Of a stretch of 63,390 bases of DNA, positions 1,124-38,203 are shown in pieces. Source of the stretch: Acidobacteriota bacterium (GTDB taxonomy: Bacteria > Acidobacteriota > Aminicenantia > JBFLYD01); assembly GCA_040756905.1 (NCBI GenBank), contig JBFLYD010000048.1, positions 1 through 63,390 of the forward strand, read 5' to 3'. How positions within the stretch are numbered: position 1 is the stretch's first letter; each line of letters begins with the position of its first letter. Both the position numbers and the translations under genes were made by a program. Under the pieces are notes generated by a model that did no database searches, was not told where the DNA came from, and was given only the letters and a program-made list of their open reading frames with translations.

Positions 1124-2682
1124 AGTTTATCTCCCTCTTTTCTTTCTTGCATTTTCTTTTCAGGCATTCTTGTAAAAATAATTTCTTTTACAGCTGGCTC
1201 CATCTGAATTGATACACTACTTATATTTCCTTTTATGTCAGTGGAGAAAGATGCCAGTTTAGTTGATCCAGTTGAATCATCCGTCAGTTCGAAAATATCA
1301 TAGTGGTAGTGCTTTACAGAAAAAGACATTGAATTAAAAGTTGCTTTTAAATCATCCCCTTCCTTCCTGATAGAGACAACTCCATATCCAGGATGTTCAA
1401 AATCTCCAGCATATTCTTCAAGGGGATGAGATGGCTTTGTATCTGGTTTTCTGTCTTTATCTTTATCTTTTTTTGCTTTTTCAGCTTCCTCTTTTGCTTT
1501 TGCCACTTCATCCTTTATGCGCTTGTTCCAAGGAATCTGGTCAAGCCCAAGGAAACGGTCATAGACATTGCAAGCGATAATCTCGGGAATCGGCGTGCCA
1601 CTCATGTTGGTAAGAATAACCACCCCGATTTTATCCCTGGGCATAAAAGTAACAAGGGCAGTAAAACCATCGATGCCTCCTCCATGGGAAATCATCAAGT
1701 GTCCTCTGTAAGCAGTGATCAGCCAGCCCATTCCATAACTTGCATAAAATAACTCATCATATTTAATAGGTTGCTGTATAACCATTTGAGGAAAATGAAT
1801 CTGAGCGAGATTTGCCTCTGAGATAATCTGGTTTTTACCAAACTTCCCTTTGTTTAGATTGAGCAAAATCCAGTTAGCCATTTCAGTTACATTGGAATTC
1901 ATGGAGCCAGCAGGACCCATGGCATCTATGTTTCTGAATGGAATTTCTTTGACTTCATTTTTTTCTTCCCTGTAAGGAAGAGCAAAGTCAGAGGCTTTTT
2001 GAGATTCATTTACAGAGAAATTGCTGTTTTTCATTCCCAATGGCTCAAGAATTCTTTTTTGAACAAATTCTTCCCAGGTTATGCCAGAGATTTGCTCGAC
2101 TAATAAACCTGCTGCCAGATACATGAGGTTTTGATACTGCCATACCAAACGAAAATCCTTACTTAGCTCCAGATACTGGAGGCGATCGAAAAGTTCTTTC
2201 CGAGTCAATGAAGAACCATACCATACTAAATCATGCCCTGGCAAGCCAGACCTGTGCGTAATTAAATCACAGGGTGTCATCCTCTCAGTTACAATAGGAT
2301 CGAATAGCTTGAAAGTAGGAAGATAATTCCTTACAGGTTTATCCCAGTCAAGTTTTCCTTCATCTACAAGGATTCCTAAAGAGACTGCAGTAAACGCTTT
2401 AGTACAGGACCCTATGGCAAAAAGAGTTTGAGGAGTTACCTTTAGTCCCTTTTTTACATCCCGAAGCCCGAATCCTTCAGATAATATTATCTCTCCGTCT
2501 TTTATGATTGCTATTGCAAGTCCCGGAACTTTCCATTCCTTCATGGTAACATTCACAAATTCACTAAAGCCTTTTAAAATTACCTTTTGTGAACTTTTCT
2601 GAGCATTGAGAGATGTAGGGATGAAAATAAGAAATAAAATAGCAACAAAAATTAAATTAAATTTAAAGAATATTTTTTTCAT
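1120..2682 (-). CDS. Secreted beta-lactamase-family serine hydrolase (class C/EstB type) with C-terminal DUF3471-like domain
   Basis: Start chosen at 2682, where AAGGAGG lies about 9 bases upstream; the longer frame to 2706 adds eight residues before a clean signal peptide (MKKIFFKFNLIFVAILFLIF). The catalytic core has the SxxK motif in GSCTKAFTAVS, a YxN motif in WQYQNLMYLAAG, and an HGG motif in ISHGGGIDGF, as in class C beta-lactamases, D-aminopeptidases and EstB esterases. A charged Lys/Asp linker (about residue 400) leads to a C-terminal beta domain (HPLEEYAGDFEHPGYG) typical of Pab87/DUF3471 peptidases. Likely a periplasmic peptidase or esterase; resistance activity is not implied. Coupled by a 4-base overlap to the downstream flavoprotein. 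Confidence 0.85.
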   Translation of the reverse strand: MKKIFFKFNLIFVAILFLIFIPTSLNAQKSSQKVILKGFSEFVNVTMKEWKVPGLAIAIIKDGEIILSEGFGLRDVKKGLKVTPQTLFAIGSCTKAFTAVSLGILVDEGKLDWDKPVRNYLPTFKLFDPIVTERMTPCDLITHRSGLPGHDLVWYGSSLTRKELFDRLQYLELSKDFRLVWQYQNLMYLAAGLLVEQISGITWEEFVQKRILEPLGMKNSNFSVNESQKASDFALPYREEKNEVKEIPFRNIDAMGPAGSMNSNVTEMANWILLNLNKGKFGKNQIISEANLAQIHFPQMVIQQPIKYDELFYASYGMGWLITAYRGHLMISHGGGIDGFTALVTFMPRDKIGVVILTNMSGTPIPEIIACNVYDRFLGLDQIPWNKRIKDEVAKAKEEAEKAKKDKDKDRKPDTKPSHPLEEYAGDFEHPGYGVVSIRKEGDDLKATFNSMSFSVKHYHYDIFELTDDSTGSTKLASFSTDIKGNISSVSIQMEPAVKEIIFTRMPEKKMQERKEGDKL

Positions 2683-2891
2683 GGCAGAACCCTCCTTCTT
2701 CAACAAATATTAATACAAATGAAGAGCAATTTTTATTCAAATTTAAAAAATAAACTATATCGAAGGAAAAATATCAAGTCAATTCCTTCATTATCATCCC
2801 TAATTTGAGTATACAGCCTTTATGTTATTGACTTTGTTTATTTCGTGTGTTATCCATTGACACTTAGTTAGCCTTAAAAGGAGGTCTTATA

Positions 2892-4727
2892 ATGAAAGGA
2901 TGGACTGGTTACATATTAAGAATTGATCTATCTTCAAAGAAAGTTAAACAAGAATCATTTGATGAAGAATTTGCAAAGAAATGGGTAGGAGGAAGGGGCT
3001 TTGCCATAAAAATTCTATGGGATGAGTTAAAACCAGGAATCGACCCATTAGGACCGGAGAATAAATTCATAGTAGCATTAGGACCCATTGCAGGAGTACC
3101 TGCACCAAACACTGGTAAAACAGTTGTTGCAGCGAAATCTCCTCTCACTGGAGGTTATGGCGATGGGAATCTGGGCTCCTGGGTGACAGAACAGTTAAGG
3201 AAGGCTGGGTATGAAGCCATTATTGTAGAGGGGAAGGCAAATTCTCCAACATATATTTATATTGAAGATGAGAAGGTAGAATTCCTCCCCGCTAATGAGA
3301 TCTGGGGCAAGGGCTCCTACGAAACCATAGAATGGCTCAATAAAAAATATGGTAAAAGAGCAGGAATCCTTACAATAGGGCAGGCTGGGGAAAACAAGGT
3401 CTTGTATTCCATAATTCGAAGCATGGAAGGAAGAGCAGGAGGAAGACCTGGCATGGGAGCTGTAATGGGCTCAAAGAATCTAAAGGCAATTGTGGTGAAG
3501 GGGACAAAAGAAATGCCTGTTTCAGACCCCGGGGGAATGAGAAAACTTGGGTTGGATGATTTGAGAAAAGTAGGAGAGATGGATAAGAAATCTGGATGGT
3601 CTGAACAGGGAACCACAGGGATTTTAGCCTGGGTTAATGAAGTAGCTGCATTACCAGTAAGAAATATGAGGAGGACATCCCATAAAGATGCTTGGAGATT
3701 GGATGGAGAAAGGCTCAATGCTGCCCGAATTGCAACTTATGGATGCCCGAATTGCACTATGCGATGCGGAATTACAATACTGGATACAGATAAGAATAAA
3801 GCAGAAATGGATTATGAAAATATTGGAATGCTGGGAAGCAATCTTGAAATTTTTGACCTCGCTCAGGTAGGTTCTTTAAACTATCTATGCGATGACTTTG
3901 GACTGGACACAATATCAGCAGGAGGAGTTTTAGCTTTTTATGCAGATGCCATTGATCAAGGCGTAGAAAAAAATGACTTCAAATTTGGAGATCCAGAAAA
4001 GGCAAAAGAACTTTTAAAAAAGATAGCCTTGAAAAAAGATGAAGGAGAACTCCTTGCCCTTGGAACAATGAAGATGGCTGAAAAGATAGGAAAAGACTCA
4101 GATGCATATGCTATGCATGTTAAAGGCCTGGAAATTTCCGCTTATAATTGTAAGTTTGTTCCTGGAATGGCTCTTGCCTATGGAACATCTGCTATCGGTG
4201 CTCATCATAAGGAAGCCTGGATTATTCTTTATGAGATAACTGAAACCCAGAGGGAGTCTTATGGAATTGAAAAGGCAAAAAAGGTGATAGATTTACAGAG
4301 AATCCGTGGAGGGCTTTTTGAAGTTATAGTTTCCTGTAGATTTCCATGGGTTGAATTAGGATGGGAACTTAATCATTACCCTGAATACTTCAAAAAGGCT
4401 ACAGGACTTGATTGGACTCTTAACGATTTCTGGAAGGTAAGCGATAGAATATATAACCTCATAAGAGCATTCTGGGTCAGAGAGTTTCCAGACTGGGACA
4501 GGAAAAGAGATTATCCTCCCAAAATCTGGTTCGATCCTGCAAATGCAGACAAAGAAGGGCAAATCGCTGGAAAAATCTTAGAATATGATAAATACAATCA
4601 ATTGCTCGATCTATATTACAAATTAAGAGGCTGGGATAAAAAGGGAATTCCTAAAAAAACGACAATGAGAGAATCTGGTCTGATTGAGGAAAGCGAGGAA
4701 CTCGAGAAATATGTTCAACTGGAATAA
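2892..4727 (+). CDS. Tungsten-type aldehyde:ferredoxin oxidoreductase (AOR family)
   Basis: A 611-residue protein of normal AOR length, preceded by AAAAGGAGG. It would oxidise aldehydes to carboxylates with ferredoxin as acceptor, using a tungsto- or molybdo-bispterin and one [4Fe-4S] cluster. The N-terminal domain shows the pterin-binding signature (WVGGRGFA, GPNTGKT-like region, SPLTGGYGDGNLG). Cluster cysteines are seen as CxxCxxxC at 285-292 (CPNCTMRC), with a later Cys in IVSCRFPWVELG as the probable fourth ligand. HVKGLEISAYN and GTSAIGAHHKEAW are typical AOR C-terminal segments. The gene stands alone, facing a convergent methyltransferase gene. The substrate is undefined: peptide-fermentation aldehydes are the usual role, but benzoyl-CoA reductase-type relatives exist. 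Confidence 0.92.
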   Translation: MKGWTGYILRIDLSSKKVKQESFDEEFAKKWVGGRGFAIKILWDELKPGIDPLGPENKFIVALGPIAGVPAPNTGKTVVAAKSPLTGGYGDGNLGSWVTEQLRKAGYEAIIVEGKANSPTYIYIEDEKVEFLPANEIWGKGSYETIEWLNKKYGKRAGILTIGQAGENKVLYSIIRSMEGRAGGRPGMGAVMGSKNLKAIVVKGTKEMPVSDPGGMRKLGLDDLRKVGEMDKKSGWSEQGTTGILAWVNEVAALPVRNMRRTSHKDAWRLDGERLNAARIATYGCPNCTMRCGITILDTDKNKAEMDYENIGMLGSNLEIFDLAQVGSLNYLCDDFGLDTISAGGVLAFYADAIDQGVEKNDFKFGDPEKAKELLKKIALKKDEGELLALGTMKMAEKIGKDSDAYAMHVKGLEISAYNCKFVPGMALAYGTSAIGAHHKEAWIILYEITETQRESYGIEKAKKVIDLQRIRGGLFEVIVSCRFPWVELGWELNHYPEYFKKATGLDWTLNDFWKVSDRIYNLIRAFWVREFPDWDRKRDYPPKIWFDPANADKEGQIAGKILEYDKYNQLLDLYYKLRGWDKKGIPKKTTMRESGLIEESEELEKYVQLE

Positions 4728-4759
4728 TTTATAAGGTTACCATCAGGAATACTCTAAAC

Positions 4760-5368
4760 TTAAAAATAATTTTCTACATAGCTGATAAATTCAACAATTA
4801 AAGGAATTATAATTATCGCCCATAAACTTCTAAATCCTATATTTTTTCTTGCTTCTTTGATAGAAAATCTCGATGTTTTTAATGCTGATGGAATCAAAAA
4901 AATATTCGGGATAATTCTTGGCGTTGCATAAGCATAAGAATAATATGACTCAGGAAAATGTTTTTTCAAATTTTCCTCTTCATGTAACATTCTTGGATAA
5001 TAAATTGTTAAATACATAATAATAAATATGAAAATTCCGATTTTATCATTTCCAATTGCAAGGAAATAAGAGAAATAAATCAGGAGAGTTCCCAAATAAA
5101 GTGGATGTCTGATAATCCTGTAAGGTCCACTTGTTGTGACCTCTTTATATTTCTTAATATTTCCAGCAGCCCAGATCCGAATCCAGATGCCTGCTAAAAT
5201 TAACAACCATAGATATATGAAAACACCTGAAAAATCAATTTTTAATAAACTTACTGATTTTGTTTTTTCAAAGAGATTGATTATTACAGCAATCAGTGCA
5301 AAAACAAAGCTGAATTCGCCTCTTTTCTTACCTATCCAGCGAAAAAATCTTCCATAAAATATTTTCAA
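4760..5368 (-). CDS. Isoprenylcysteine carboxyl methyltransferase-family membrane protein
   Basis: A 202-residue integral membrane protein with about five hydrophobic segments. The family signature is clear: SGPYRIIRHPLYLG (about 95-108), followed by EEENLKKHFPESYYSYA, the SAM-contacting helix and conserved E/Y/Y of the ICMT/PEMT superfamily. Bacterial members methylate small or lipid-like substrates, and the target here is unknown. It is convergent with the AOR gene, with 32 bases between stops. A 252-base AT-rich gap follows before the next rightward gene. Confidence 0.8.
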   Translation of the reverse strand: MKIFYGRFFRWIGKKRGEFSFVFALIAVIINLFEKTKSVSLLKIDFSGVFIYLWLLILAGIWIRIWAAGNIKKYKEVTTSGPYRIIRHPLYLGTLLIYFSYFLAIGNDKIGIFIFIIMYLTIYYPRMLHEEENLKKHFPESYYSYAYATPRIIPNIFLIPSALKTSRFSIKEARKNIGFRSLWAIIIIPLIVEFISYVENYF

Positions 5369-5620
5369 GTTGTTATCTCGGGTGATTTATTTACATAAAT
5401 AAATTTTTCTCATAAATTCTTTAAAAACATGAATAAGCACTTTTCCATAAATTTTAAATTTAAGATATTATACTTTTTAAGAGAATAATACAACCTTTCA
5501 ATAAGACTTTATATATTGTTTAAACCTTTATCTTTTTTTGATATTATTATCCTATATTCAAATAAATATGAAAGAAAGTTTAAAAGATAGGAAATAAATT
5601 AATATTGAGGAGGAATAATA

Positions 5621-6925
5621 ATGATTCACTCCAGAAGAAATTTTCTAAAACATTTTGCAGGGCTTGGTGGATTAATAACAGCCACAGCAATGTTCTCACC
5701 TGATGTTATAAAAAAAGTGAATGCTGCAACATTAAAATTAAAAGAAAAAACTCCTGAACAGGTCGCTCAGGATGAAGATTTCTGGTTTGAAATTCAACAG
5801 GCATTCACAATAGATAGGAGCATTATAAACCTTAACAACGGCGGCGTCCATCCTTCGCCAAGAATTGTCCAGGAAGCAGTTAAAGAATACATGGATTTTG
5901 GGGAGAAATCACCCACATACACAATGTGGCAGGTTATACAGCCCTTAAAGGAAGTAACGCGCACAAAACTTGCTCAAATGTTCGATTGCTCTCCTGAAGA
6001 AATTGCGATTACCCGTAATTCAACAGAAGCATTGGACATTATTCTCCTTGGGTTCCCTCTGAAACCCGGGGATGAAATTCTTACAACGACTCAGGATTAT
6101 CCCTCTATGCAGAATGCATTAAATCAAAGAGAAAAAAGAGAGGGTATTGTCATAAAGCGAGTCACTTACCCTTCTCCCCCTTCTGACTTAATGGAAATAG
6201 TAGAAGCTATAGAAAAGGGTATTTCTTCAAAAACAAAGCTTATACTTATATGCCATATGGTCAACATAACAGGACAAATTCTTCCTGTTAAAGAAATATG
6301 TAAAATTGCTCATAATAAGGGAATAGAGGTAGTCGTTGATGCAGCTCATACATTTGCTCACATAGATCATAAAGTTTCAGATTTAGAGTGTGACTACTAC
6401 GGAACAAGTCTTCATAAATGGCTTATGGCTCCAAAGGGAACTGGGTTTCTTTATGTTAAAAAGGACAAGATTAAAAAAATATGGCCACTTTTCCCTCCTC
6501 AAGACCCCCTCAGTGATGACATTAGAAAATTCGAGGCTATTGGAACTCATCAGGTTGCTATAGAACTTGGAATCGATGAAGCTATTGCATTTCATAATGG
6601 AATAGGCTCAAAAAGAAAAGAAGCTCGATTTCGCTTCCTGAAAGATTACTGGGCAAAGAGATTGATGGAGATTCCTCAGGTAAAATTCCGTGTTTCTCTT
6701 GACCCAGCTCACTCATGTGGTCTGGCAAATTTTTATGTGGAAGGAATCGATCCTGTTAAACTATCAGAAGTTCTTTTCAATAAACATCATATAGTTGTTA
6801 CACCAATTACTCATGAAGAAGTTCCTGGAATCAGGGTTACTCCGAGCCTTTATACGCGCCTTGAGGAACTTGATTTATTTATCGATGCAGTTACTTATTA
6901 CATTAATAAAGGTCTTCCTTCATAA
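5621..6925 (+). CDS. Tat-exported class V aminotransferase (isopenicillin-N-epimerase/cysteine desulfurase-like)
   Basis: 434 residues after a strong GAGGAGG site. The N-terminus, HSRRNFLKHFAGLGG, matches the twin-arginine consensus SRRxFLK, so the protein should be folded with its PLP and exported. The body is a fold-type I PLP enzyme: NNGGVHPSP at the substrate loop, TRNSTEALD, VDAAHTFAHID (cofactor Asp), and GTSLHKWLMAPKGTGF with the Schiff-base Lys. Family members act as epimerases, C-S lyases or desulfurases; the reaction here is not determinable. No partner gene is adjacent. The Tat signal is unusual for PLP enzymes but recurs in this subfamily. Confidence 0.88.
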   Translation: MIHSRRNFLKHFAGLGGLITATAMFSPDVIKKVNAATLKLKEKTPEQVAQDEDFWFEIQQAFTIDRSIINLNNGGVHPSPRIVQEAVKEYMDFGEKSPTYTMWQVIQPLKEVTRTKLAQMFDCSPEEIAITRNSTEALDIILLGFPLKPGDEILTTTQDYPSMQNALNQREKREGIVIKRVTYPSPPSDLMEIVEAIEKGISSKTKLILICHMVNITGQILPVKEICKIAHNKGIEVVVDAAHTFAHIDHKVSDLECDYYGTSLHKWLMAPKGTGFLYVKKDKIKKIWPLFPPQDPLSDDIRKFEAIGTHQVAIELGIDEAIAFHNGIGSKRKEARFRFLKDYWAKRLMEIPQVKFRVSLDPAHSCGLANFYVEGIDPVKLSEVLFNKHHIVVTPITHEEVPGIRVTPSLYTRLEELDLFIDAVTYYINKGLPS

Positions 6926-6938
6926 AAAAAGAGATTAA

Positions 6939-7111
6939 CCTAATTTGAGCGATTCTTATCGATAATTGCTTTTAAAGGCACTGGATTCCTGCTGGAGTTT
7001 ACCTTCATGAAAATGGGGGCAGGAATGAATTAAACACTCATCAGTTGAAACTGTCATTCCCGCGAAAGCGTAAATCCAGAAGACTTCCTTAATAAAATCG
7101 CTCAATTTAGG
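6939..7111. repeat. 173-bp element with 16-bp terminal inverted repeats
   Basis: CCTAATTTGAGCGATT (6939-6954) is the inverse of AATCGCTCAATTTAGG (7096-7111) with one mismatch. The interior holds partial palindromes of the widespread CATTCCCGCGAAAGCG...ATCCAG family, also seen at 26.58 kb. There is no coding capacity. It looks like a non-autonomous (MITE-like) or REP-like intergenic repeat and fills about half of the 337-base gap between the aminotransferase and adenylyltransferase genes. The rest of that gap shows nothing recognisable. Confidence 0.6.
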
Positions 7112-7262
7112 ATTAAATTAAAGTTTTGGAGTAATTAAAAGTTAAATTAAATTATCTTCCCCCATAAGTTTACCTGCTTACTCAGTTGTCATTTAACTGT
7201 GAATAAATGTAAAATCAATTCTAAGGGTTAGAATAAAAATTAAAATCGCATGGGGTAGAATA

Positions 7263-8294
7263 ATGGAAAAAAAAGATTTATTGAGGTATTCAAGACAGAC
7301 TATTCATGAAAAGATTGGAATTGAGGGGCAAAAAAAACTGAAGAACAGTTTCATCGCAATAATAGGTTGCGGAGGGCTTGGCTCCAATGTGGCAGATCAT
7401 CTGGCAAGGGCAGGAGTCGGAAAGATAAAAATTATCGATAGAGATTTTGTGGAGATTGAAAACTTACAAAGACAGGTTTTATTTGATGAAGACGATGTTA
7501 AAAATAACCTTCCTAAAGCAATCGCTGCAGCAGAAAAAATTAAGAAAATAAATTCAGAAGTTGAAATCGAGCCAGTGGTTACGGATTTTAATTTTACAAA
7601 CGCAGAAAATCTTATCAAAGGAGTGGATTTAGTCATCGATGGGCTTGATAATTTCGAGACTCGGTTCTTGATAAATGAAGCATGTGTAAAAAATAACATT
7701 CCCTGGATATATGGGACATGCGTCAGCTCATATGGTTTCATAATGAACATCATTCCTCATAAAACCCCTTGCCTGAGATGTATTCTTGACCCTGTCTCTC
7801 CAGGTCAATCTTTCACCTGTGAAACAGTAGGGATACTCGGGCCAACAGCTTCAACAATAGCTTCCCTTGAAAGTGTTGAAGCGATTAAATTCCTTCTTGG
7901 GAATTTAGACGCACTAAACAAAAATTTAACTTTTATCGATATATGGACAGATGAATTTGAAAAAATCGATACTTCCAGAATGAAAAAAGAAGACTGTTCT
8001 GTATGTGTTCAAAAAAAATTTGATATTTTGGAGCAGAAAAAATCAGCATCGATTTCTTCCCTCTGCGGAAGGAATGCTGTTCAGATTATCCCATCAACAG
8101 ACAAAATGGTAAATTTGGTAAACATATCAAAAAGGCTGGAAAATCTTGGAAAAGTGTTTGTAAGTGAACATATATTAATATTCAAAATAAATGAATATGA
8201 AATAACTTTGTTTCCAGATGGAAGGGCCATCATCAAAGGAACTGATAACGAATCAGTTGCTAAAAAAATTTATACTCAATATATAGGGATGTAA
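7263..8294 (+). CDS. E1-like adenylyltransferase (ThiF/MoeB/HesA family)
   Basis: 343 residues. RYSRQTIHEKIGIEGQKKL and the ATP-binding loop IIGCGGLGSNVADHLARAGVG (about 33-53) are diagnostic of enzymes that adenylate the C-terminal glycine of ubiquitin-like sulfur carriers. The zinc site is two CxxC pairs, CLRC and CSVC. The cysteine of SFTCETVGILGP is the candidate catalytic thiol. A C-terminal extension of about 80 residues, starting near CGRNAVQI, is found in many ThiF/MoeB proteins. It could serve molybdopterin/tungstopterin assembly, which would suit the nearby AOR, or thiamine or cysteine synthesis. No sulfur-carrier gene is adjacent, so the pathway is inference. Confidence 0.88.
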   Translation: MEKKDLLRYSRQTIHEKIGIEGQKKLKNSFIAIIGCGGLGSNVADHLARAGVGKIKIIDRDFVEIENLQRQVLFDEDDVKNNLPKAIAAAEKIKKINSEVEIEPVVTDFNFTNAENLIKGVDLVIDGLDNFETRFLINEACVKNNIPWIYGTCVSSYGFIMNIIPHKTPCLRCILDPVSPGQSFTCETVGILGPTASTIASLESVEAIKFLLGNLDALNKNLTFIDIWTDEFEKIDTSRMKKEDCSVCVQKKFDILEQKKSASISSLCGRNAVQIIPSTDKMVNLVNISKRLENLGKVFVSEHILIFKINEYEITLFPDGRAIIKGTDNESVAKKIYTQYIGM

Positions 8295-13892: not shown

Positions 13893-13913
13893 TACTACAA
13901 TATGTAGTATAAT
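13893..13913 (+). promoter_or_regulatory. BlaI/MecI-type operator overlapping a -10 box
   Basis: TACTACAATATGTAGTA (13893-13909) is a palindrome with TACTACA/TGTAGTA half-sites, the kind bound by BlaI/MecI/CopY repressors (known BlaI sites have the form TACTACAT-ATGTAGTA). It runs into TATAAT (13908-13913), so bound repressor would cover the promoter. The same motif precedes the ccm operon and blaI in this window. It lies 27 bases upstream of the beta-lactamase/propeller gene. Confidence 0.75.
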
Positions 13914-13939: not shown

Positions 13940-15604
13940 ATGGAAAAGGATATTTTTAGAAAAAACATGAAATTACTTTTTACAACTTTATTCGTTATCA
14001 TATCTTTCTCATCAAGCCTTTATGGAAAAGAGTTAAAAACCTTAGAAAAGAACATAAACAAAATATTGAATTCTGTAAATGCTCGACCTGGCTTCGCTCT
14101 CATCCATATTGAATCTAATGATAAAATTTTAATCAGAGAAAACGAATTATTCACCCTTGCCAGTGTTCGAAAAGTGCCTAATATGGTAGCTGTTGGAAAA
14201 GCAATAATGGATGAAAAAATATCCTGGAATGACAGAATATCTCTTACAGATGACGTTAAAGTTGAAGGCGCCAGTGGCATAATACAGGAACTTCCTTCAG
14301 GCATTGATCCAACCATCAAATATTTGACTGAAATAATGATTTCAGTAAGTGATGGAACTGCCACTGAGATGATTTTCCAGAAATTAGGAATGGATTGGAT
14401 AAATCCCTTTCTAAAATCCATCGGATTACAGAATACAAACATTGATCTTTCAACCGCAAAATATTTTGCCCATCCAATTCGCGAAGCTATCGTAATAAAA
14501 TCTTTAAATAATCAAACAACAGAAGAAATAATGGTTACTGATATTCCCTATCAAGCAGAAAATCTAACTCTATCTCCGGATAAAAGCAGGATAGCATTTG
14601 TTCAATCCTATGATATATGGATAAAAGACTTAAAAACGAACACTATGACACAGATAACAAATGACAATTTCAGGCAAAAGGAACCCTGCTGGTCACCAGA
14701 TGGGAAAAAATTAGCGTTCTCCAGCAATATAAATGGAAATTATGACATCTGGATCTGGGATGAAAAAGATAACTCTCTTCATCAACTAACGATCTCCATG
14801 GCAGATGAAACTGAACCTGCATGGTCTCCTGATGGAAAAAAAATAGCATATTCATGGAGATACAGGAACCTTGTTAATTTGAGATACGCAGATTTAAAAG
14901 AAAAAAAAGAATATCTATTAACAGATTTCAACATAGGTGGGAATCTGCCTATCTGGTCACCTGATGGAGAAAAAATAGTATTTCAAAGTAAAAATAATAT
15001 TTGGATTTTAGATTTAAATAGAAAAAAAATAAAAAAATTGACAGCTTATGAAGGTAATAACTGGAATCCAGGCTTCTCTTCAGACGGAGATTCAGTCATT
15101 TTTGAATCGGATATGGACAAGAATTTTGATTTGTGGGAGATATCTCTTCGAGGTGGTATTATGAAAAAATTGACAGATGATATCTGGATAGAGAAAAACC
15201 CAATACTTCTCAAAGATGAAAATAAACTGATTTACACCAGGATTGAAAGAGCAGATTTAAATTTAAAACACAATACAAGCACTCCATACGATATTGCTCT
15301 TCTTTTAAAAAAAATATATGAGAAAACAATTCTTACTCCTGAAATTTGTGAGAAATTTGTCGAAATACTTTCTAAAACTTCAAGAGCTTCTTATACTCCT
15401 CGTTTTATTCCGAGTAACGTTAAATTTATTTGGAAAGGTGGTTCATTACCAAGAGTAAGAACATTTGCGGGTATTCTATATTTTGGAGAGAACTCCCATT
15501 GCGCTGTTTCCATATTTTTTAATGATATTCACGGAGATGAAGCAGCTTCAAGTGCAATCGGAGAAATACTAAAAACTATCTGTGATTTTTACACCCAAAA
15601 ATAA
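13940..15604 (+). CDS. Exported class A beta-lactamase-fold protein with a PD40/TolB-like propeller inserted at the omega-loop position
   Basis: 554 residues; start at 13940 has CGAGGA nine bases upstream. Signal peptide about 10-29. Residues 40-185 follow the first half of class A serine beta-lactamases: SVRK at 75-78 (SxxK) and SDG at 137-139 (in place of SDN). Then five WSPDG-type PD40 blades occupy about 205-435 (for example WSPDGKKLAF, WSPDGEKIVF). The lactamase fold resumes at NTSTPYDIALLLKKIY (about 445), with KGGS at 499-502 as the KTG-box equivalent and GILYFG/CAVSIFFND strands. The insertion replaces the omega loop that normally carries the deacylating Glu166. It is probably a penicillin-binding sensor or a changed hydrolase rather than a resistance enzyme. 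A BlaI-type operator precedes it. Confidence 0.75.
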   Translation: MEKDIFRKNMKLLFTTLFVIISFSSSLYGKELKTLEKNINKILNSVNARPGFALIHIESNDKILIRENELFTLASVRKVPNMVAVGKAIMDEKISWNDRISLTDDVKVEGASGIIQELPSGIDPTIKYLTEIMISVSDGTATEMIFQKLGMDWINPFLKSIGLQNTNIDLSTAKYFAHPIREAIVIKSLNNQTTEEIMVTDIPYQAENLTLSPDKSRIAFVQSYDIWIKDLKTNTMTQITNDNFRQKEPCWSPDGKKLAFSSNINGNYDIWIWDEKDNSLHQLTISMADETEPAWSPDGKKIAYSWRYRNLVNLRYADLKEKKEYLLTDFNIGGNLPIWSPDGEKIVFQSKNNIWILDLNRKKIKKLTAYEGNNWNPGFSSDGDSVIFESDMDKNFDLWEISLRGGIMKKLTDDIWIEKNPILLKDENKLIYTRIERADLNLKHNTSTPYDIALLLKKIYEKTILTPEICEKFVEILSKTSRASYTPRFIPSNVKFIWKGGSLPRVRTFAGILYFGENSHCAVSIFFNDIHGDEAASSAIGEILKTICDFYTQK

Positions 15605-15638
15605 GTATATTATAACTCGTAATTCACCAGTAAGCCTT

Positions 15639-15773
15639 TAACCCGAATTACGCAAGGTTCTTTGCAGATTACCGTAGGGCAATGCTTTAGCCTTGCTTTG
15701 ATTCACTAAAGATGCAGGGCTAAAGCCCTGCCCTACAAGGGCTTTGACATAGGTTTGCATAATTCGGGTTTAA
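15639..15773. repeat. About 135-bp repeat with terminal inverted repeats and nested GTAGGGC palindromes
   Basis: TTAACCCGAATTACGCAA (from about 15638) is inverted near the right end as TTGCATAATTCGGGTTTAA (15755-15773) with few mismatches. The inside holds GTAGGGCAATGCTTTAGCC and the opposing GGGCTAAAGCCCTGCCCTAC, a common intergenic palindrome type. It is non-coding, probably a MITE-like element, and occupies half the gap before the iron-regulated receptor gene. Confidence 0.6.
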
Positions 15774-15785
15774 TAAAATTTTTAC

Positions 15786-15858
15786 TTGACAGGAAAAATA
15801 ATTTTAATTTAAAATTGAGACTCATTCTCAATTAAAATAATTTTGAGAATGAAATCAA
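15786..15858 (+). promoter_or_regulatory. Promoter with two Fur-like iron boxes
   Basis: TTGACA at 15786-15791 is a -35 candidate. TGAGACTCATTCTCA (15816-15830, within a longer ATTGAG...CTCAAT palindrome) and TGAGAATGAAATCA (15844-15857) fit the 7-1-7 Fur pattern TGATAAT-N-ATTATCA with G or C substitutions. The second box ends 16 bases before the start of the downstream TonB receptor, a position suited to iron-dependent repression. The regulator itself is not in the window, and a DtxR-type protein is possible. Confidence 0.6.
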
Positions 15859-19839: not shown

Positions 19840-19866
19840 TTGACATTCTACATTATGTAGTATAAT
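19840..19866 (+). promoter_or_regulatory. Promoter of the ccm operon with an embedded BlaI-type operator
   Basis: TTGACA (19840-19845) and TATAAT (19861-19866) are separated by 15 bases that are almost wholly the palindrome TTCTACATTATGTAGTA (19846-19862). Half-sites TCTACA/TGTAGT with three central bases match the sites at 13.89 and 38.21 kb. The arrangement is the same as in the blaI promoter. The ccmE start is 80 bases downstream. Confidence 0.75.
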
Positions 19867-26861: not shown

Positions 26862-29516
26862 TTACAAAGAAAATTTGGGTTCATATCTTCTCATAGAAAG
26901 AGAATTTGTAACAACAAAAACAGAGCTAAAAGCCATTGCAGCTCCCGCTATTATAGGATTTAGTAAAATTCCAAAAAATGGATAAAGAATTCCTGCAGCT
27001 ATGGGAATTCCAAGAAGATTATAAAAGAAAGCCCAAAATAAATTTTGCTTGATTTTTTTCATCGTGTAAGAGCTCAAATCCATCGCTGTTAAAACATCTC
27101 TTAAATCATCCTTTATCATTACAATATCTCCTGCTTCGATTGCAATGTCAGTCCCTGAGCCAATAGCAATACCAAGATCAGCCTGAGTTAAAGCTGGTGC
27201 ATCATTAATTCCATCCCCAACCATTGCAACTTTTTTCCCTTCTGCCTGTAACTTCTTTATCTCTGAGGCTTTATCCTGGGGAAGCACCTCTGAGAGAACA
27301 AGTTCGATTCCCAATTTTTTCCCAATGGCTTTGCCTGTTCTTCGGTTATCCCCTGTAATCATCCAAACTTCTTTTCCTTTTTTCTTTAATTCTTTAATAG
27401 TCTCTGTAGAATAATTTTTTAACGTATCAGCTACTCCTATCAAGCCTACAGACTTATCATCAACTCCAAGTATCATAACAGTTTTTCCCTGATGTTCAAG
27501 ATTGCGGATGCTATCTTCGATGAAATCAATTTTTATGTTGAATTTGTCGAATAATTTTCGGTTTCCGAGGACAATTTTTTTATTGTCATATTCTGCTATT
27601 ACCCCCATCCCAGGTATTGCTTGAAAATTTGAGGGTTCTGGAATTTTTATTCCTTCCTTTTTGGCTTCATTCACGATTGCCTCAGCAAGAGGATGCTCAG
27701 ATTTTTTCTCTGGGATAGAGGCTAATTTCAAAATCTCTTTTTTATCCATACCGTTAACCGGAATTGCATCTGTGAGCTCTGGTTTTCCTTTAGTTAATGT
27801 GCCAGTTTTATCAAATATAATTGTGGTGATCTTGTAAACTTTCTGAAGGCTCTCAGCACTTTTAATCAAAATTCCATTCTTTGCACCAATACCTGTTCCA
27901 ACCATAACCGCTGTAGGAGTTGCCAATCCAAGGGCACATGGACATGCAATTATCAAAACCGCTATTGCAATCGTAAGGGAGAACACAAAACTTTTTCCAA
28001 CAAGAATCCATATGAAAAATGAAAAAACAGCAATTAGAACAACTGCAGGAACAAAATAAGCTGAAATTTTATCAGCGAGTCTCTGTATTGGAGCCTTGCT
28101 TCCCTGAGCCTCTTCAACCAGTTTTATTATCTGGGATAAAACTGTATCCTTCCCGATTTTCAATGCTTTAAATTTAAATGAACCTGTCTTATTTATTGTT
28201 CCTCCGATAACTTTACTTCCTGAAGATTTCTCCACTGGAATACTTTCTCCTGTTATCATCGATTCATCCACGCTTGAGTAACCTTCAATTACCTCCCCAT
28301 CCACAGGAATCTTTTCCCCAGGCTTTACAATCACAACGTCCCCGATTTTAACCTCTTCCACTGGAACTTCTATTTCTTCGTTATTTCTTACAACAACAGC
28401 AGTCCTGGGCTTTAATCCCATCAATTTTTTTATTGCTTCTGAATTTCTTCCTTTTGCAATCGATTCAAGCCATTTTCCCAGTAAGATGAATGTGATAAGA
28501 ATTCCTGCTATTTCATAATAAAGATTTTCCATTCCATATTTTTTAGATCCTGCCCCCATCAAAATAGAAACATACAGACTGTACAGGTAAGCTGCTCCAA
28601 CCCCAAGGGCAACAAGAGTGTCCATTGTGGCTGATTTTGATTTGATAACAGCCATCGTTCCTTTTGTAAAAAATTCATAACCTGCTATAAAAATAGGTGT
28701 AGTTAGAATAAATTGAATCAAGGCAATGTTTTTTAGCACAAAAGAAGGAATTGGAAGACCTATGTGAGGTCCCATTGCAAAATAAGCTAAGGGGATTGAT
28801 AAAATAAGAGATACAATAAATTTAATTTTTAAACTCGTTATTTCCTTCTCTCGAATTTCCTTCTCTCTGTCAATACTTAAAGTTTCTTCCTCAACCGGAG
28901 TATATCCTGCGGATTTTATGGCATTTTTTATTTTTGTAATGCTTATTTTGTTGGGGTCGTATATGATTTTTGCCTTCTCGTTGATGAATAACTCTTTCGA
29001 TATGATTCCATCCAGATTATCTAAGACACCTTTAACAGTTCCTAAACAATGGAGGTTATCCATTCCTATGATTTTTAAATTCAGAATCTCTTTCTTTTTC
29101 TCTTCTTTTATTACTTTATATCCTGTAATTTCTATTGCATTTTCTAATTGGGATAATTCCGTAGTCTCTGGATTGAATTCAATAAAAGCTTTTTCAGAAG
29201 CAAAATTGACCCTGGCATCCAGAACACCTTTTACTTTTTTTAGTGAATTTTCTATTGTTATTGCACAGGAAGCACAATGCATCCCACTTATAGAAATAGA
29301 TGTTTTTTCAATTTTATCGTATTTTAATTCCATCCCTTTCTCAATTTCAACCTTGTGTTTTTCTTTCTCTCTTATTTTAACTTTTTTTTCCTGTTCTTCT
29401 TCAAGAAATTTCTCTAAACAAAATTTACTGCAGAAATAATATGTCCTCCCTTCTCTTTCAGTCTTTAATTCAGTTTCTTCGTTAACAGTCATCCCACAGA
29501 TTGGGTCAATTGGCAT
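26862..29516 (-). CDS. copA: Cu(+)-exporting P1B-type ATPase with N-terminal YHS domain
   Basis: 884 residues. Order: a YHS metal domain (1-40, DPICGMTV...YYFCSKFC), a canonical HMA domain with GMHCASC (78-84), a second degenerate HMA domain with a single Cys (GMDNLHCLG, 151-159), then the transport core with the intramembrane [16 protein letters not shown] actuator loop, DKTGTLTKG phosphorylation site, SEHPLAEAI and [10 protein letters not shown]. The CPC motif and the final Met/Ser-rich helix indicate Cu(I)/Ag(I) export from the cytoplasm. It ends a leftward copper island with CusABC and BlaI. No BlaI-type operator was seen directly upstream. Confidence 0.95.
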
Positions 29517-29633
29517 TTTATTTTATCCTTTTATTTCTTTATTTTATTTTTTCTTTTGAAGAACCCTGCCATTCCTGAATCAAGTTCAGGACAGGAAATA
29601 GCAGGGATTCTTCGACGGCAAGGTATTTTGTCA

Positions 29634-30017
29634 TTAATATTGCTCGCCTTGACCCGCCCCTGAAGGGACGGGATTGCGGCGAGCCTTCCGTTCAACATAT
29701 TTTTCCGGGTCTTTATCAAATATTATCATCCTCTCCCTATTGGGGAGAGGATCGAGGCGAGGGGGAAGATTGCTTTTCTTTTTTATAGTCTTTTGAATAA
29801 CTTCATAAACCCCTTCAATATTATTCAATATAGCTTCATTACTAAATCTTAATATTTGCACTCCTATCTTGGATAATTCTTTTGTTCTTAATTCATCTTG
29901 TTGTCTACTCTCATCTTCATAATGTTGCCCACCATCAGCTTCAATACCAAGCTTATATTCCGGAGAATAGAAATCTAATATATATTTGCCAATAGAAAAT
30001 TGTCTTCTGAACTTCAC
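29634..30017 (-). CDS. DUF559 (Vsr/PD-(D/E)XK-related) endonuclease-like protein with disrupted 5' end
   Basis: The first usable start is GTG at 30017, giving 127 residues, but the family homology continues upstream in the same frame to about 30110 (LRKDQTDAEKKLWAVLRNRQ) without any ATG, GTG or TTG before a stop at 30129-30131. The core KFRRQFSIGKYILDFYSPEYKLGIEADGGQH...LRTKELSKIGVQILRF is intact. The C-terminal 45 residues are encoded by a GGGGAGAGG palindrome and a second palindrome, and another copy of the GGGGAGAGG repeat sits at the missing start. The gene is probably 5'-truncated or uses a rare start. The role of the family is unproven; the fold suggests DNA nicking. Confidence 0.65.
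   Translation of the reverse strand: MKFRRQFSIGKYILDFYSPEYKLGIEADGGQHYEDESRQQDELRTKELSKIGVQILRFSNEAILNNIEGVYEVIQKTIKKKSNLPPRLDPLPNRERMIIFDKDPEKYVERKARRNPVPSGAGQGEQY
29728..29766. repeat. GGGGAGAGG palindrome inside the DUF559 reading frame
   Basis: ATCCTCTCCCTATTGGGGAG then AGGAT, followed by CGAGGCGAGGGGG. This copy is translated as the DUF559 C-terminal tail (LPPRLDPLPNRER). Confidence 0.6.
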
Positions 30018-30119
30018 CCCGTCTAATTGACGATTTCGAAGTACTGCCCAAAGTTTCTTTTCAGCATCTGTCTGATCTTTCCGAAGTTTTCTACATATCT
30101 CAATTCTTTTTCTTTTCGT

Positions 30120-30166
30120 TTCTCCCCCTCACCCTACCCTCTCCCCATAAAGGAGAGGATGAAAGA
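30120..30166. repeat. GGGGAGAGG palindrome at the broken 5' end of the DUF559 gene
   Basis: CCCCCTCACCCTACCCTCTCCCCATAAAGGAGAGG at 30124-30158, split by a loop; same family as those at 8.34 and 30.84 kb. It contains the stop that closes the upstream frame of the DUF559 gene. Confidence 0.6.
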
Positions 30167-30222
30167 TATCACCTTCTGATTTTTAAAAAAATTCACAATT
30201 CAAGACCTGACCCCAAATTTTT

Positions 30223-30744
30223 TTAGTGTTTGTGCTCTTCTTTCTTTACTTCCTTCCCTTTCTCATGCTTCATCATCATTGGGCATCCCATTCCTTTTCC
30301 CTCTTTATGCATCTCCTGAATTTTCTTCACAACCTCTGGATTGTCAGATGTGATTTTTATTTGCACTCCATCTGGCAGATTTGTGGTTTCTACCTTTACA
30401 TCTTTCATCATTTCTTTGCAGCATCCTTCTTTCTTTTCATGTTCATGCTTTTCCATATGCATCATCTTCATCCCAGGGCATTCCATCCCTTTCTTGGATT
30501 CTTCTTTTTTAATATATTTCTCTGGATTTTTATCGAACTTATCTTTGCAATCTTGGGAACAGAAATAATAAGTTTCACCTTTATATTCTGACTTGAACTT
30601 TGCTTCTTCTTTTGCAAGCTTCATTCCACATACTGGATCTTTGACCTCTTCTTTTGCCCTCAAATAAACTGGCATTGAAATGATTGCCAGTGCAACAAAA
30701 ACTGCAATGAAGAATAACCAGAAATTCTTACTTAAATGTTTCAT
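30223..30744 (-). CDS. Exported YHS-domain metal-binding protein
   Basis: 173 residues with AAAAAGGAGG before the start. Signal/anchor ([21 protein letters not shown]), then a YHS domain ([17 protein letters not shown]...[12 protein letters not shown], about 37-75) and a Met/His/Cys-rich region ([34 protein letters not shown]) ending HKH. It is a likely periplasmic Cu(I)/Ag(I) chaperone or sponge serving the CusCBA pump encoded upstream and CopA downstream. The 250-base gap after cusA includes a repeat and a hairpin. Confidence 0.8.
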
Positions 30745-30841
30745 TTTAAAATCCTCCTTTTTACATTAGTTTATATTATAAAAAATAAAATTTTGTGGCG
30801 ACTAATACAAACACAAAAAGTTTTATTACATTCTCAGTATG

Positions 30842-30894
30842 ACCCCTCACCTTTTTCCTCTCCCCTATGAGGGGAGAGGGGTGGGTGAGGGGTG
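30842..30894. repeat. GGGGAGAGG palindrome between cusA and the YHS gene
   Basis: CCCCTCACC...CCTCTCCCCTATGAGGGGAG...GGGTGAGGGG. The flanking left sequence (CTAATACAAACACA at about 30797) resembles the outer arm of the 8.3-kb copy, so both belong to the same larger element. Confidence 0.6.
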
Positions 30895-30911
30895 ACTGTG
30901 GAACAGAAATT

Positions 30912-30934
30912 ATTACATCTGCTATAGATGTAAT
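30912..30934. terminator. Hairpin downstream of cusA
   Basis: ATTACATCT and AGATGTAAT pair perfectly (9 bp) around GCTAT. A T-rich tail follows on the plus strand; on the minus strand, where the cus operon reads, the tail is short, so efficient termination is uncertain. Confidence 0.35.
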
Positions 30935-30993
30935 TTTTATGGTCACTCTTGCTGCCCAAATCTCTAACTTATTGTAAAACTTTACTTGTTTTC

Positions 30994-33900
30994 TCATTTT
31001 TCCATATGTTTTACCTCTGAATGCCATTTCCATAGTAAAAATATTGCAGGATACACTAATAATTCCATGACAAATGAGGTGAATATTCCACCAACCATTG
31101 GAGCAGCTATTCTTTTCATAACATCAGCTCCTGTTTCATGAGTCTGAGACCACATAATGGGAAGTAATCCCATAAAGAGTGCCATAGCTGTCATCATCTT
31201 TGGCCTTACTCTTTTCACAGCTCCATGAACTATTGCTTCTTTTAAATTCTCCATCGTCTTCATTAAACCCTTCTTTTTCATATCATTATAAGAAAGGTCA
31301 AGATAAAGAAGCATTATAACTCCTGTTTCCGCATCAACTCCAAGAAGAGCAATTATCCCAGCCCAGATTCCAATGCTTATATTGTAACCGAGTAAATACA
31401 TTAACCACACTGCTCCAACTAAAGAGAAAGGAACTGCCAACATAACTATAAAGGTTTTTGTAAATGAACCAGTGTTCAAATAAAGAAGCAAAATTATGAT
31501 AAAAATGGTTAAAGGCACAACTAACATAAGCCTTTGTTTTACTCTCATCATGTATTCATATTGGCCGGAAAAAACAAGAGTATATCCTTCTGGTAATTTT
31601 AGATTATCCCTTAATATCTGCTTTACCTCATTAACATAACCACCAATATCCCTCCCTGCCATATCTATATAAACATATCCTGCAAGTCTTGCATTTTCAT
31701 CCCTTATCATAGACGGTCCGAGTCTGACCTCTATGTTTGCAAGTTGGGTAATAGGAACCTGAGCTCCTGAAGAAGTTGGAACATATATTTTCCTCAATTT
31801 TTCTATGTCGTCCCTTAACTCTCTCGGATATCTCAGATTAACCGGGTATCTCTCCCTCCCTTCGATTGTCTGGGTGATATTCTCTCCTCCTACAGCAGCC
31901 ATTACTACCATTTCCACATCCTCAATCGATAAACCATATCTTGCAATTTCTTCTCGGTTCAACTTGAAATCTACAAAATAACCACCTGATGTCCTTTCTG
32001 AAATCACACTCTGTGTTCCTTCCAGTCCTGAAACGAGCTTTTCAATTTCAATTCCAATCTGTTCAATCTTTTTCAGGTCATCGCCATAAATCTTTATTCC
32101 AACTGGGGTTCTCACTCCTGTTGTCAGCATATCAATTCTTGCTTTAATCGGCATCGTCCATGCGTTAACGACTCCTGGCAATCTTAGTGCTTTATCGATT
32201 CCCTTTTCTCCGTATATCAATTCCTCCCATGAAATCCTGTCTGGCCAGAATACTCTGAATGGGCCTTGAAGAAACTCAGGAATAATCTTTGAATACCATC
32301 TTTCTTTTTTTCTCCATTCATTCTGGGGTTTTAAAATTACTGTAGTTTCCATCATTGAAAATGGTGCAGGGTCAGTAGAAGTTACAGCCCTTCCTGCTTT
32401 TCCAAAAACTCTTTCTACCTCTGGAAACGACCTCAACAGTTTATCCTGAATTTGAAGAAGCCGTGTTGCTTCTGTGACAGAAATTCCCGGAAGTGTTGTT
32501 GGCATGTATAAAATTGAACCTTCATTTAAAGGAGGCATAAATTCTGAACCGAGTTTAAAATATACAGGGATTGTGGTTAAAACAATCAAAATAGCAAGAA
32601 TAATAATTTTGAGTGGTCTTTTTAAAATAAAATTAATTGAAGGTTCATAAATTCTAAATAAAAATTTACTAACAGGGTGCTTCTCTTCTGAGCGAATCTT
32701 TCCTCTTATAAAAAGGCCCATCAGCGCAGGAGCAACTGTTATAGCAACAATAGCAGCAAAAGCCATTGCAAAATTTTTTGTAAATGCAAGAGGTTTAAAA
32801 AGCCTTCCTTCAAAGGCTTCGAGGGTAAATATCGGCATAAACGAAATTGCAATCACAAGAAGACTGAAGAATATTGGCCTTCCAACTTCCTTTGCAGCAG
32901 ATATTAATGTTTCAAACTTAGAGATTCCAGATGATTCATCATAATGTTCAAGCCTTTTATGGGCATTCTCTACAAGAATAATCGATGCATCGACCATTGC
33001 TCCAATTGCAATTGCAATTCCTCCAAGAGACATGATGTTTGACGTAAGTTTCATGTAATACATGGGAATAAACGAAAGCAATGCTGCAAATATAAGAGTA
33101 ACAATCGGAATTAATGCAGACCTTATATGCCAGAGAAAAGTAAGTATTACTAAACATACAACTAAAATTTCCTCAAAAAGTTTTGTTTTTAGAGTGTTAA
33201 TAGAGCGTTGAATCAAATCAGACCTATCATAAGTTGTAATTACCTCAACACCCTCTGGAAGTTTAATTTCTTTCAATTTCTGTTTAACTCTTTTAATAAC
33301 ATCCAGGGCATTTTCTCCATACCTCATAACAACAATTCCACCCACAACTTCTCCCTTGCCATCCAGTTCAGCCACACCTCTTCTTATATCTGGCCCTAAA
33401 ACAACATTTGCCACACTCTTTATTCTTACAGGAACTCCATTGGCATCATTCTTTAAAACTGTCTCTTCTAAATCTTTTATTGATTTTACATAACCCCTTC
33501 CTGTAACCATATATTCAGTGCCAGAAATTTCAATCAACCTTGCACCAATGTCATTGTTCGCTTTTCTTATTGCCATGATAACTTCATGAAGAGGAATGTT
33601 GTAAGATAAAAGAGATTCAGGGTTAACAACAACCTGATACTGCCTTACAAATCCTCCAACGGATGCAACTTCTGCAACTCCCCTAACAGATTGAAGTGAA
33701 TATCTAAGATGCCAGTCCTGAAAGGCTCTTAAATCTTCGATAGAATGTTTCCCTGATTTATCAACAAGAGCATACTGAAATACCCATCCAATTCCAGTGG
33801 CATCAGGTCCTAACTCAACTCTGACATCTGGTGGAAGGACTGGAATTACTTTGCTTAAATATTCAAGAACTCTCGTTCTTGCCCAATAGACATCTGTTCC

Positions 33901-34194
33901 ATCTTCAAAAATTATGTACACATAAGAAAAACCATAATCTGAAAATGCCCGGATATCTATTACTTTTGGTGCACCGAGGAGGGAAGTAACTATTGGATAA
34001 GTTACCTGGTCTTCAATTATATCAGGAGGTCTGTCCCACCTTGAAAAGACTATTACCTGGGTATCAGAAAGGTCAGGAATAGCATCGAGAGGGATGCTTT
34101 TGATACACCAGATAGAATAAAATACAGCAAAGACAACTCCAATGAATATGAAAAATCTATTTTTTGCTGACCATTCAATAATTTTTTCTATCAT
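30994..34194 (-). CDS. cusA: CusA-type heavy-metal RND efflux transporter (Cu/Ag)
   Basis: 1066 residues, the normal length for HME-RND pumps. Twelve spans with two large periplasmic loops. IPLDAIPDLSDTQVIVFSRW at the N-terminus, GAMVDASIILVENAHKR in TM4, and AWTMPIKARIDMLTTGVRTP (about residue 680) are signature segments; the methionines in the last one belong to the Cu(I)/Ag(I) relay of CusA. It drives proton-coupled export of monovalent copper or silver from periplasm to exterior with CusB and CusC. Spacing of 16 bases from cusB supports one operon. Confidence 0.94.
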   Translation of the reverse strand: MIEKIIEWSAKNRFFIFIGVVFAVFYSIWCIKSIPLDAIPDLSDTQVIVFSRWDRPPDIIEDQVTYPIVTSLLGAPKVIDIRAFSDYGFSYVYIIFEDGTDVYWARTRVLEYLSKVIPVLPPDVRVELGPDATGIGWVFQYALVDKSGKHSIEDLRAFQDWHLRYSLQSVRGVAEVASVGGFVRQYQVVVNPESLLSYNIPLHEVIMAIRKANNDIGARLIEISGTEYMVTGRGYVKSIKDLEETVLKNDANGVPVRIKSVANVVLGPDIRRGVAELDGKGEVVGGIVVMRYGENALDVIKRVKQKLKEIKLPEGVEVITTYDRSDLIQRSINTLKTKLFEEILVVCLVILTFLWHIRSALIPIVTLIFAALLSFIPMYYMKLTSNIMSLGGIAIAIGAMVDASIILVENAHKRLEHYDESSGISKFETLISAAKEVGRPIFFSLLVIAISFMPIFTLEAFEGRLFKPLAFTKNFAMAFAAIVAITVAPALMGLFIRGKIRSEEKHPVSKFLFRIYEPSINFILKRPLKIIILAILIVLTTIPVYFKLGSEFMPPLNEGSILYMPTTLPGISVTEATRLLQIQDKLLRSFPEVERVFGKAGRAVTSTDPAPFSMMETTVILKPQNEWRKKERWYSKIIPEFLQGPFRVFWPDRISWEELIYGEKGIDKALRLPGVVNAWTMPIKARIDMLTTGVRTPVGIKIYGDDLKKIEQIGIEIEKLVSGLEGTQSVISERTSGGYFVDFKLNREEIARYGLSIEDVEMVVMAAVGGENITQTIEGRERYPVNLRYPRELRDDIEKLRKIYVPTSSGAQVPITQLANIEVRLGPSMIRDENARLAGYVYIDMAGRDIGGYVNEVKQILRDNLKLPEGYTLVFSGQYEYMMRVKQRLMLVVPLTIFIIILLLYLNTGSFTKTFIVMLAVPFSLVGAVWLMYLLGYNISIGIWAGIIALLGVDAETGVIMLLYLDLSYNDMKKKGLMKTMENLKEAIVHGAVKRVRPKMMTAMALFMGLLPIMWSQTHETGADVMKRIAAPMVGGIFTSFVMELLVYPAIFLLWKWHSEVKHMEK

Positions 34195-34210
34195 TTAAAA
34201 TCCTCTCTAT

Positions 34211-35521: not shown

Positions 35522-35534
35522 AATCAGCTCCTTA

Positions 35535-36799: not shown

Positions 36800-37777
36800 T
36801 TATCTGTGACAAAAATACTGAACTGTGTTTGAATTTTTCATTTCACAGCAGAAGCATTTATATGAAAGGTCAGCCTGATGGTTAACTTCTCTATGAAATG
36901 TTTTTTCATAGGGAAAGATTGAAAGGATGAGAAAAAAATAAATGAAAATGCTTAAAATCAATTTTTTGACAGGAAATTTTTTTCTATAATTTTTATTTTC
37001 TATGTTCAACAATCTTTCAAGTCTTTCATTTATAAACTCATCTTTATAGAAATTTATAAAATTTCTTACAGAATCGATGTTATTCTTTTTTATCTTTAAA
37101 AGAGAAGATGCAAGATTCAATGAAGGGCCAGAAAAATTCAGAGCATAATCATCTGCCATAAACTCAGAGCATCTTTTGAAAATTGAAAATATATTCTTTG
37201 ACACTGGAAGGAAAGAAAATAAGCTTGAGAAAAAATACAAAATTATGCTTTTTAAAGGATCTTTTCTTTTCAGATGACTTTTTTCATGTAAAAGGACGGC
37301 TTTAATTTCCTCTTCATTTAAAGATTCAATAAGGCCTGTTGAAACATATATTTTTGGAAAAATTAAACCAGAGGTAAATGCAATGTTAAAATCGTTTTTA
37401 AAAGAAATAATTCTATTCTCTTTTATCGACAAATCTTTAATTATCCTTTTAATCTTTGAAGGGAAATCTGTTTTTTCTAAAGATTTAGAATAGGCATAGG
37501 CTTTAAAAAATTTATAAAGAGTTTTTATTAACGAATAAACAAAAAGAGTTAGCAGGAAGAAAATCAGAATATATTTCAGGGTAAGAAATAACTTTAAGTT
37601 AGTTGATATTATTTCAAAACATCTTCTTATACACTTTTCATAAAATAAATTTAAAATGTTCTGATGGGGATATGAAAAATTTAAGTAGATTATCAAGAGT
37701 ACGATTGAAAAAAGAAATGTAAATGAAAAAATTAAAAAATTGTTTATTTTGTTAAATTTTCTTATATCTCCGCTCAT
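36800..37777 (-). CDS. BlaR1-like M56 membrane metallopeptidase with Cys-rich tail and no penicillin-sensor domain
   Basis: 325 residues. Membrane spans at the N-terminus, then a gluzincin peptidase domain with LLHEKSHLKRKD (HExxH) and the third ligand in SEFMADDYAL. A final span (LILSIFIYFFLILSIF) leads to a short extracytoplasmic tail with H-x3-H and CxCC plus CH (HREVNHQ, CFCCEM, YFCHR). BlaR1/MecR1 carry a penicillin-binding domain of about 250 residues there, and it is absent. By analogy it senses a signal outside and cleaves BlaI to open the operon. Placed before cusCBA, the signal is more likely a metal. Its start overlaps the blaI stop (ATGA). Confidence 0.82.
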   Translation of the reverse strand: MSGDIRKFNKINNFLIFSFTFLFSIVLLIIYLNFSYPHQNILNLFYEKCIRRCFEIISTNLKLFLTLKYILIFFLLTLFVYSLIKTLYKFFKAYAYSKSLEKTDFPSKIKRIIKDLSIKENRIISFKNDFNIAFTSGLIFPKIYVSTGLIESLNEEEIKAVLLHEKSHLKRKDPLKSIILYFFSSLFSFLPVSKNIFSIFKRCSEFMADDYALNFSGPSLNLASSLLKIKKNNIDSVRNFINFYKDEFINERLERLLNIENKNYRKKFPVKKLILSIFIYFFLILSIFPYEKTFHREVNHQADLSYKCFCCEMKNSNTVQYFCHR

Positions 37778-38190: not shown

Positions 38191-38203
38191 CGTAATTTTT
38201 AAA

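Follow-up and report, generated by a model that had tools for sequence, protein, structure and literature searches.

The DNA analysed here, referred to as the window, is a stretch of 63,390 nucleotides from an Acidobacteriota bacterium (contig JBFLYD010000048.1 of assembly GCA_040756905.1), and the features under discussion are collected in Table 1. The reading frame at positions 13940–15604 of the forward strand is intact from ATG to TAA and comprises 554 codons. It is preceded by a GAGG ribosome site, and the protein begins with what reads as a signal-peptide-like N-terminus. Pfam recognised two stretches of the protein as PF13354 (Beta-lactamase2; 1.1e-39, the first stretch covering residues 53–172), with a score of 136.4 bits against a curated cut-off of 22, and between these two a PD40 domain (7.5e-32) with four stretches above threshold. 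In a class-wide PF13354 search the two parts were matched to profile positions 3–121 and 116–213 of 214. Nested inverted repeats with arms of 19 and 23 nt, which resemble MITE or REP elements, lie between the chimeric gene and the next gene (15637–15773), and a Fur-box-like palindrome, TTGAGACTCATTCTCAA, is located at about 15817–15845 before a TonB-receptor gene at 15874. No Rfam family was found near the chimeric gene.

Table 1. Positions of the chimeric gene, its parts, and the associated regulatory and efflux features in the window.
Feature	Position	Strand	Remarks
BlaI-family operator TACTACAATATGTAGTA, perfect 7-bp arms	13893–13909		31 bp before the ATG of the chimeric gene
Chimeric gene, 554 aa	13940–15604	+	Sec-type signal region, then a PF13354 domain of serine-hydrolase fold interrupted by a PD40 propeller
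N-terminal half of lactamase/PBP-A fold, residues ~31–173	14030–14458	+	S75-x-x-K78, S137-D-G139
Inserted PD40/TolB-like beta-propeller, residues ~174–440	14459–15259	+	five full blades, sixth apparently from both ends
C-terminal half of lactamase fold, residues ~441–554	15260–15601	+	NTSTP helix start, K499-G-G
Operator, 1 mismatch	19846–19862		promoter of ccmE-led cytochrome c maturation operon
Heavy-metal efflux genes	26862–36785	-	downstream of the repressor/M56 pair
M56 membrane protease, 325 aa	36800–37777	-	directly after the repressor; Cys/His-rich C-terminal tail CFCCEM..FCHR
BlaI/CopY-family repressor (PF03965)	37774–38190	-	sole PF03965 gene found in the genome
Operator, 1 mismatch	38208–38224		promoter of the blaI-type repressor gene

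The position of the propeller within the serine-hydrolase domain was obtained from alignments to solved structures. Residues 69–169 and 444–546 of the chimera align to the neighbouring chain stretches 46–145 and 159–262 of 4EWF, and once the insert is removed a single unbroken alignment is obtained to 4EWF (6.3e-19) and likewise to PBP-A (about 5e-18). The omega loop is therefore the site of the insertion, far beyond what chance could produce. According to the alignment the boundaries of the insert are located at about 173/174 after NTNIDLSTA and at about 440/441 before NLKHNTSTP, each within 5 residues. The PF13354 domain is thereby interrupted by about 267 residues, a continuous domain being usual for the family although not strictly defining. 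An earlier note, made from the letters of this DNA, had described SVRK and SDG in the first half, KGGS in the last, and five PD40 blades between IGLQNTN and NTSTPYD. All of these were recovered, with SVRK at 75–78, SDG at 137–139, KGGS from 499, and five full blades and a partial sixth readable between IGLQNTN at 161 and NTSTPYD at 445. The insertion of about 230 residues proposed there is indeed a nested domain but was underestimated in length, and the proposed replacement of the omega loop was correct as to the site and not as to the replacement: since the front part of the loop (NTNIDLSTA) is retained, the propeller is inserted within it.

A protein of this kind could also result from an assembly artefact joining two unrelated genes, and the chimera was indeed seen only once, in a draft genome made up of 69 contigs, and in none of the other genomes searched. 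An artefact would have to explain why both junctions are in frame and fall in precisely the same loop, and why the C-terminal part continues the N-terminal part of one domain. In addition, GC content and codon usage of the N-terminal part, the insert, and the C-terminal part are host-like, all agreeing with the neighbouring genes (wrong frames score lower), and a repeat check at both junctions found no long repeats bridging them. Mis-assembly appears unlikely because the same loop would have to be hit twice in frame, and overall the artefact is considered highly improbable. The nested architecture is real and the protein is a singleton, the function of which we infer.

The search for homologues with the same insertion which the earlier note had suggested yielded none. 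Across 142 class genomes no second protein turned up whose omega loop holds a propeller, nor did a second chimera in 396 genomes sampled from the phylum, in the genome contig collection by a single-sequence scan, or in viral contigs. None of the best 80 loci from an alignment scan of the genome contigs had a propeller inside, and no match among 72,556 plasmid records covered 80% of the chimera; these searches detect close copies and could miss a distant chimera. As the protein is a singleton, no conservation argues for a function of the fusion itself. In the tree, the lactamase domain of the chimera has a very long branch (2.12 changes per column) and no supported position; relatives from Candidatus Aminicenantes (L069) and Candidatus Saccharicenans (L113) cluster with genes from the same class, which makes an Aminicenantia-type bacterium the probable host. 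Omega loops of 63–66 residues occur in some relatives, and judged from these sequences the loop seems to accept insertions. One locus that resembled a second chimera (L068) was rejected, the S9 peptidase there being encoded separately, next to a PF13354 gene. L107 (3987–5102, forward strand) is a Luteimonas PF13354 protein with an insertion of only about 72 residues near the omega loop. In a further protein of 753 amino acids (L050 in G051, 1384–3645, reverse strand), N-terminal parts recognised by eye as ChaN-like and as a probable PDZ domain are joined to a long-omega-loop PF13354 domain.

The AlphaFold2 model of the chimera was built with 45 lactamase-type relatives, and the confidence of the two halves comes from these relatives, all of which are without the insert. 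The pLDDT was 88–98 over residues 31–170 and mostly 82–98 over 441–554, with one block of 73. Foldseek matched the modelled lactamase domain to LRA-5 (target-normalised TM 0.87–0.90), PBP-A (0.83–0.89), and 4EWF (0.83–0.86). As each of these matches extends over more than 520 alignment columns, the fold involves both halves. It is predicted with very high confidence that the halves form one alpha/beta fold, which answers positively the question raised earlier whether they pair around the propeller. The propeller and lactamase parts were modelled separately, because in a joint alignment MAFFT placed the propeller rows on the lactamase halves. In the full model the propeller blocks had pLDDT values of 34–77 (below 50 for residues 177–184 and 196–232); modelled alone with six sequences the propeller yielded a pLDDT of 75, and its model is of moderate confidence only. 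By fold E-value its nearest match is TolB, with Foldseek values down to 6e-14 and a TM of about 0.58; it also matches S9-peptidase propellers, at TM values mostly of 0.63–0.70, and over both groups the TM ranges from 0.5 to 0.7. From the model it is plausible that a sixth blade is formed by strands of both ends; the two ends would then lie close to each other, as required of a nested domain. When the full model was compared with viral structures, only low-scoring matches of propeller type were obtained.

Of the catalytic residues, S75, K78, S137, and K499 are retained in the chimera, S75-V-R-K78 corresponding to the class A motif S70-x-x-K73. The other class A features, SDN (130–132), Glu166, and K234-T/S-G, are all absent. 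In the 46-row alignment SDN is found in 45 of 45 relatives and SDG in the chimera alone, and where all 45 relatives carry KTG, KPG, or KSG, only the chimera has KGG (499–501). The residue at the direct offset to L158 of PBP-A is T172, and the chimera contains no ExxLN. The canonical ExxLN omega loop is, however, also missing from each of the 45 nearest homologues aligned, where typical loops are RLRRKMMDLKAAAEGRENVSTP, and omega loops lacking the glutamate have been described for PBP-A (PMC11189452) and LRA-5 (PMC12777564). The idea of the earlier note that the insertion removed the deacylation glutamate is thus not borne out. Because the nearest relatives in general share this absence, no insertion is needed to explain it, and the main step of the argument for acyl trapping falls.

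Such acyl trapping would make the chimera a sensor of beta-lactams or muropeptides, in which the serine is acylated without deacylation and this state is passed on by the propeller. The four retained residues together with the absent Glu166 equivalent fit this explanation, and PBP-A forms a penicillin acyl-enzyme (2J8Y). Glu166 being missing from all aligned relatives, its absence is not a trait of the insertion, however, and the equivalents of N132 and T235 have been lost too. The departures from an otherwise invariant SDN and from KTG, KPG, or KSG make efficient acylation doubtful, and no signalling output is known; the proposed sensor found no positive evidence. The same SDG and KGG changes speak against a genuine, perhaps slow, DD-peptidase with a propeller selecting the substrate, as propellers gate S9 peptidases, and peptidoglycan genes are absent next to the chimera. 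In spite of a DD-peptidase, PBP-A, being among the closest solved relatives (PMC11189452), and of the alignment of the propeller with those of S9 peptidases, this explanation is regarded as improbable. The strongest rival of the lid or docking function proposed below is an inactive scaffold, in which a dead PBP-like domain would be an anchor or a grip on peptidoglycan and the propeller would serve TolB-like protein-protein binding in the periplasm. The motifs SDG and KGG, unique among the 46 aligned sequences, the very long branch of the lactamase domain, and the closeness of the propeller to TolB are in line with a scaffold. The presence of all four catalytic serine and lysine residues is not, and a scaffold is seen as possible but on the unlikely side.

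The BlaI-type operator which the earlier note had assigned to the chimeric gene was found as a perfect palindrome, shared with the blaI and ccmE promoters. TACTACAATATGTAGTA at 13893–13909 is its sole perfect copy in the 2.56-Mb genome, and the only one-mismatch copies genome-wide, those at 19846 and 38208, are both within the window. The pattern TWCTACANNNTGTAGWA was seen three times versus 0.13 expected per genome from base composition, and two-mismatch sites were fewer than in a reversed-pattern control. The same palindrome occurs before blaI genes in three genomes from other genera of the class (G002, G011, and G051), and in G002 additionally before an efflux gene. At the ccmE and blaI sites, and likewise in these three genomes, the operator fills the 17-bp spacer from TTGACA to the -10 box. 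This arrangement, TTGACA-TTCTACANNNTGTAGWA-TATAAT, with the operator exactly occupying the promoter spacer, is seen in several genera of the class (36800–38224 of the window; L169, L172, L183, L185). Unlike these other sites, the promoter of the chimeric gene has the operator without a good -35 box, and the palindrome there could also serve the divergent TonB-receptor gene. From its sequence, regulation of the chimera by the operator is likely, with weaker evidence than at the other sites because of the missing -35 box.

The M56 protein encoded next to the repressor has M56/M48 matches only and no penicillin-sensor domain. The M56 partners in G002 and G051 likewise end in Cys/His-rich tails, the one in G011 less so. 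The efflux genes downstream of the pair encode an outer-membrane efflux protein, a CusB-like protein with a heavy-metal-binding domain, a CusA-like RND pump, a YHS-type protein, and a copper-type P-ATPase, with a small unrelated open reading frame (29634–30017) within the stretch. A sensor-less M56 protein with a Cys-rich tail and efflux neighbours points to a metal-efflux regulon rather than to induction by beta-lactams, and the chimera probably belongs to this heavy-metal regulon. The protein itself is poor in cysteine, histidine, and methionine and is therefore not obviously a metal binder. A BlaI/M56 pair in another genome (L180 in G022, 2485–7819), with two TonB C-terminal domains on the M56 protein, is located about 2 kb away from a PBP-A-like gene with a long omega loop.

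Since the M56 partner itself lacks a sensor domain, it is conceivable that sensing falls to a separate soluble protein, which would suit acyl trapping. The Cys-rich tail and the metal-efflux neighbours do not, and acyl trapping is altogether considered unlikely. In a related proposal the propeller would be a sensing or gating element and the chimera the separate periplasmic sensor of the sensor-less BlaI/M56 pair, linking the state of the cell wall to metal efflux and cytochrome c maturation; to this we attach a very low probability.

The explanation tentatively preferred here, with a probability somewhat short of even, is a PBP-A-like domain of weak or no turnover to which the propeller serves as lid or docking module, the protein being expressed with the heavy-metal response. 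A secreted PBP-A-like serine-hydrolase domain, a class A fold without the glutamate, would have received a TolB/S9-type propeller as a nested domain in its omega loop. As this loop is one wall of the active-site mouth, a role as lid or docking module appears most likely, and the propeller may control the access of an envelope ligand, such as a peptidoglycan stem peptide or a protein partner, to the serine pocket. The changes to SDG and KGG hint at little or no turnover, and the domain would then probably be a slow enzyme of the DD-peptidase type or a peptidoglycan-binding protein of low activity. The BlaI/M56 pair would derepress the chimera together with heavy-metal efflux, likely of copper or silver as suggested by the neighbours and the tails, and with cytochrome c maturation, and the job of the chimera would probably be envelope maintenance under metal stress.

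To our knowledge, large insertions at the class A omega loop are known mainly from engineering. A case in nature in which this loop, the one defining beta-lactamase chemistry, has taken up an entire propeller would demonstrate that it can accommodate very large modules and may make use of them. Expansions of about 40 residues in other family members suggest that the omega loop is an insertion hot spot in PBP-A-like proteins without Glu166. The locus also illustrates that an operator of the BlaI type can precede a lactamase-like gene without implying antibiotic resistance.

Among known systems, PBP-A (Thermosynechococcus Tll2115; PDB 2J7V, 2J8Y) shares the class A-like fold, the SxxK motif, and the omega loop without glutamate, which is short and ends in NTTSP. 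Unlike the chimera it has no propeller and an intact SDN, and it is an active DD-peptidase (PMC11189452). LRA-5 (PDB 8EO5), a class A 'precursor' without Glu166, is alike in fold but has intact SDN and KTG and an ordinary omega loop; with valine at position 166 it shows negligible lactamase activity (PMC12777564). The long-omega-loop PF13354 subfamily of the same class (L047–L051, L069) is of the same family, with omega loops of about 66 residues. It differs from the chimera in that the extra length amounts to only about 40 residues and includes no propeller, and in that SDN and KTG are intact, and the tree gives no secure placement of the chimera with it. TolB and the S9-peptidase propellers share the PD40 repeats with the inserted propeller and match its model in Foldseek, but we know of none that is nested within a penicillin-binding fold. 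The regulation resembles that by BlaI-BlaR1 and CopY in the PF03965 repressor, the M56 protease (as in BlaR1), and the TACA..TGTA palindrome. It differs from BlaI-BlaR1 in the M56 protein without penicillin sensor and in the metal-efflux context, and from CopY in the centre of the operator, which is 3 bp here as compared to 2 bp in CopY sites (PMC7253601).
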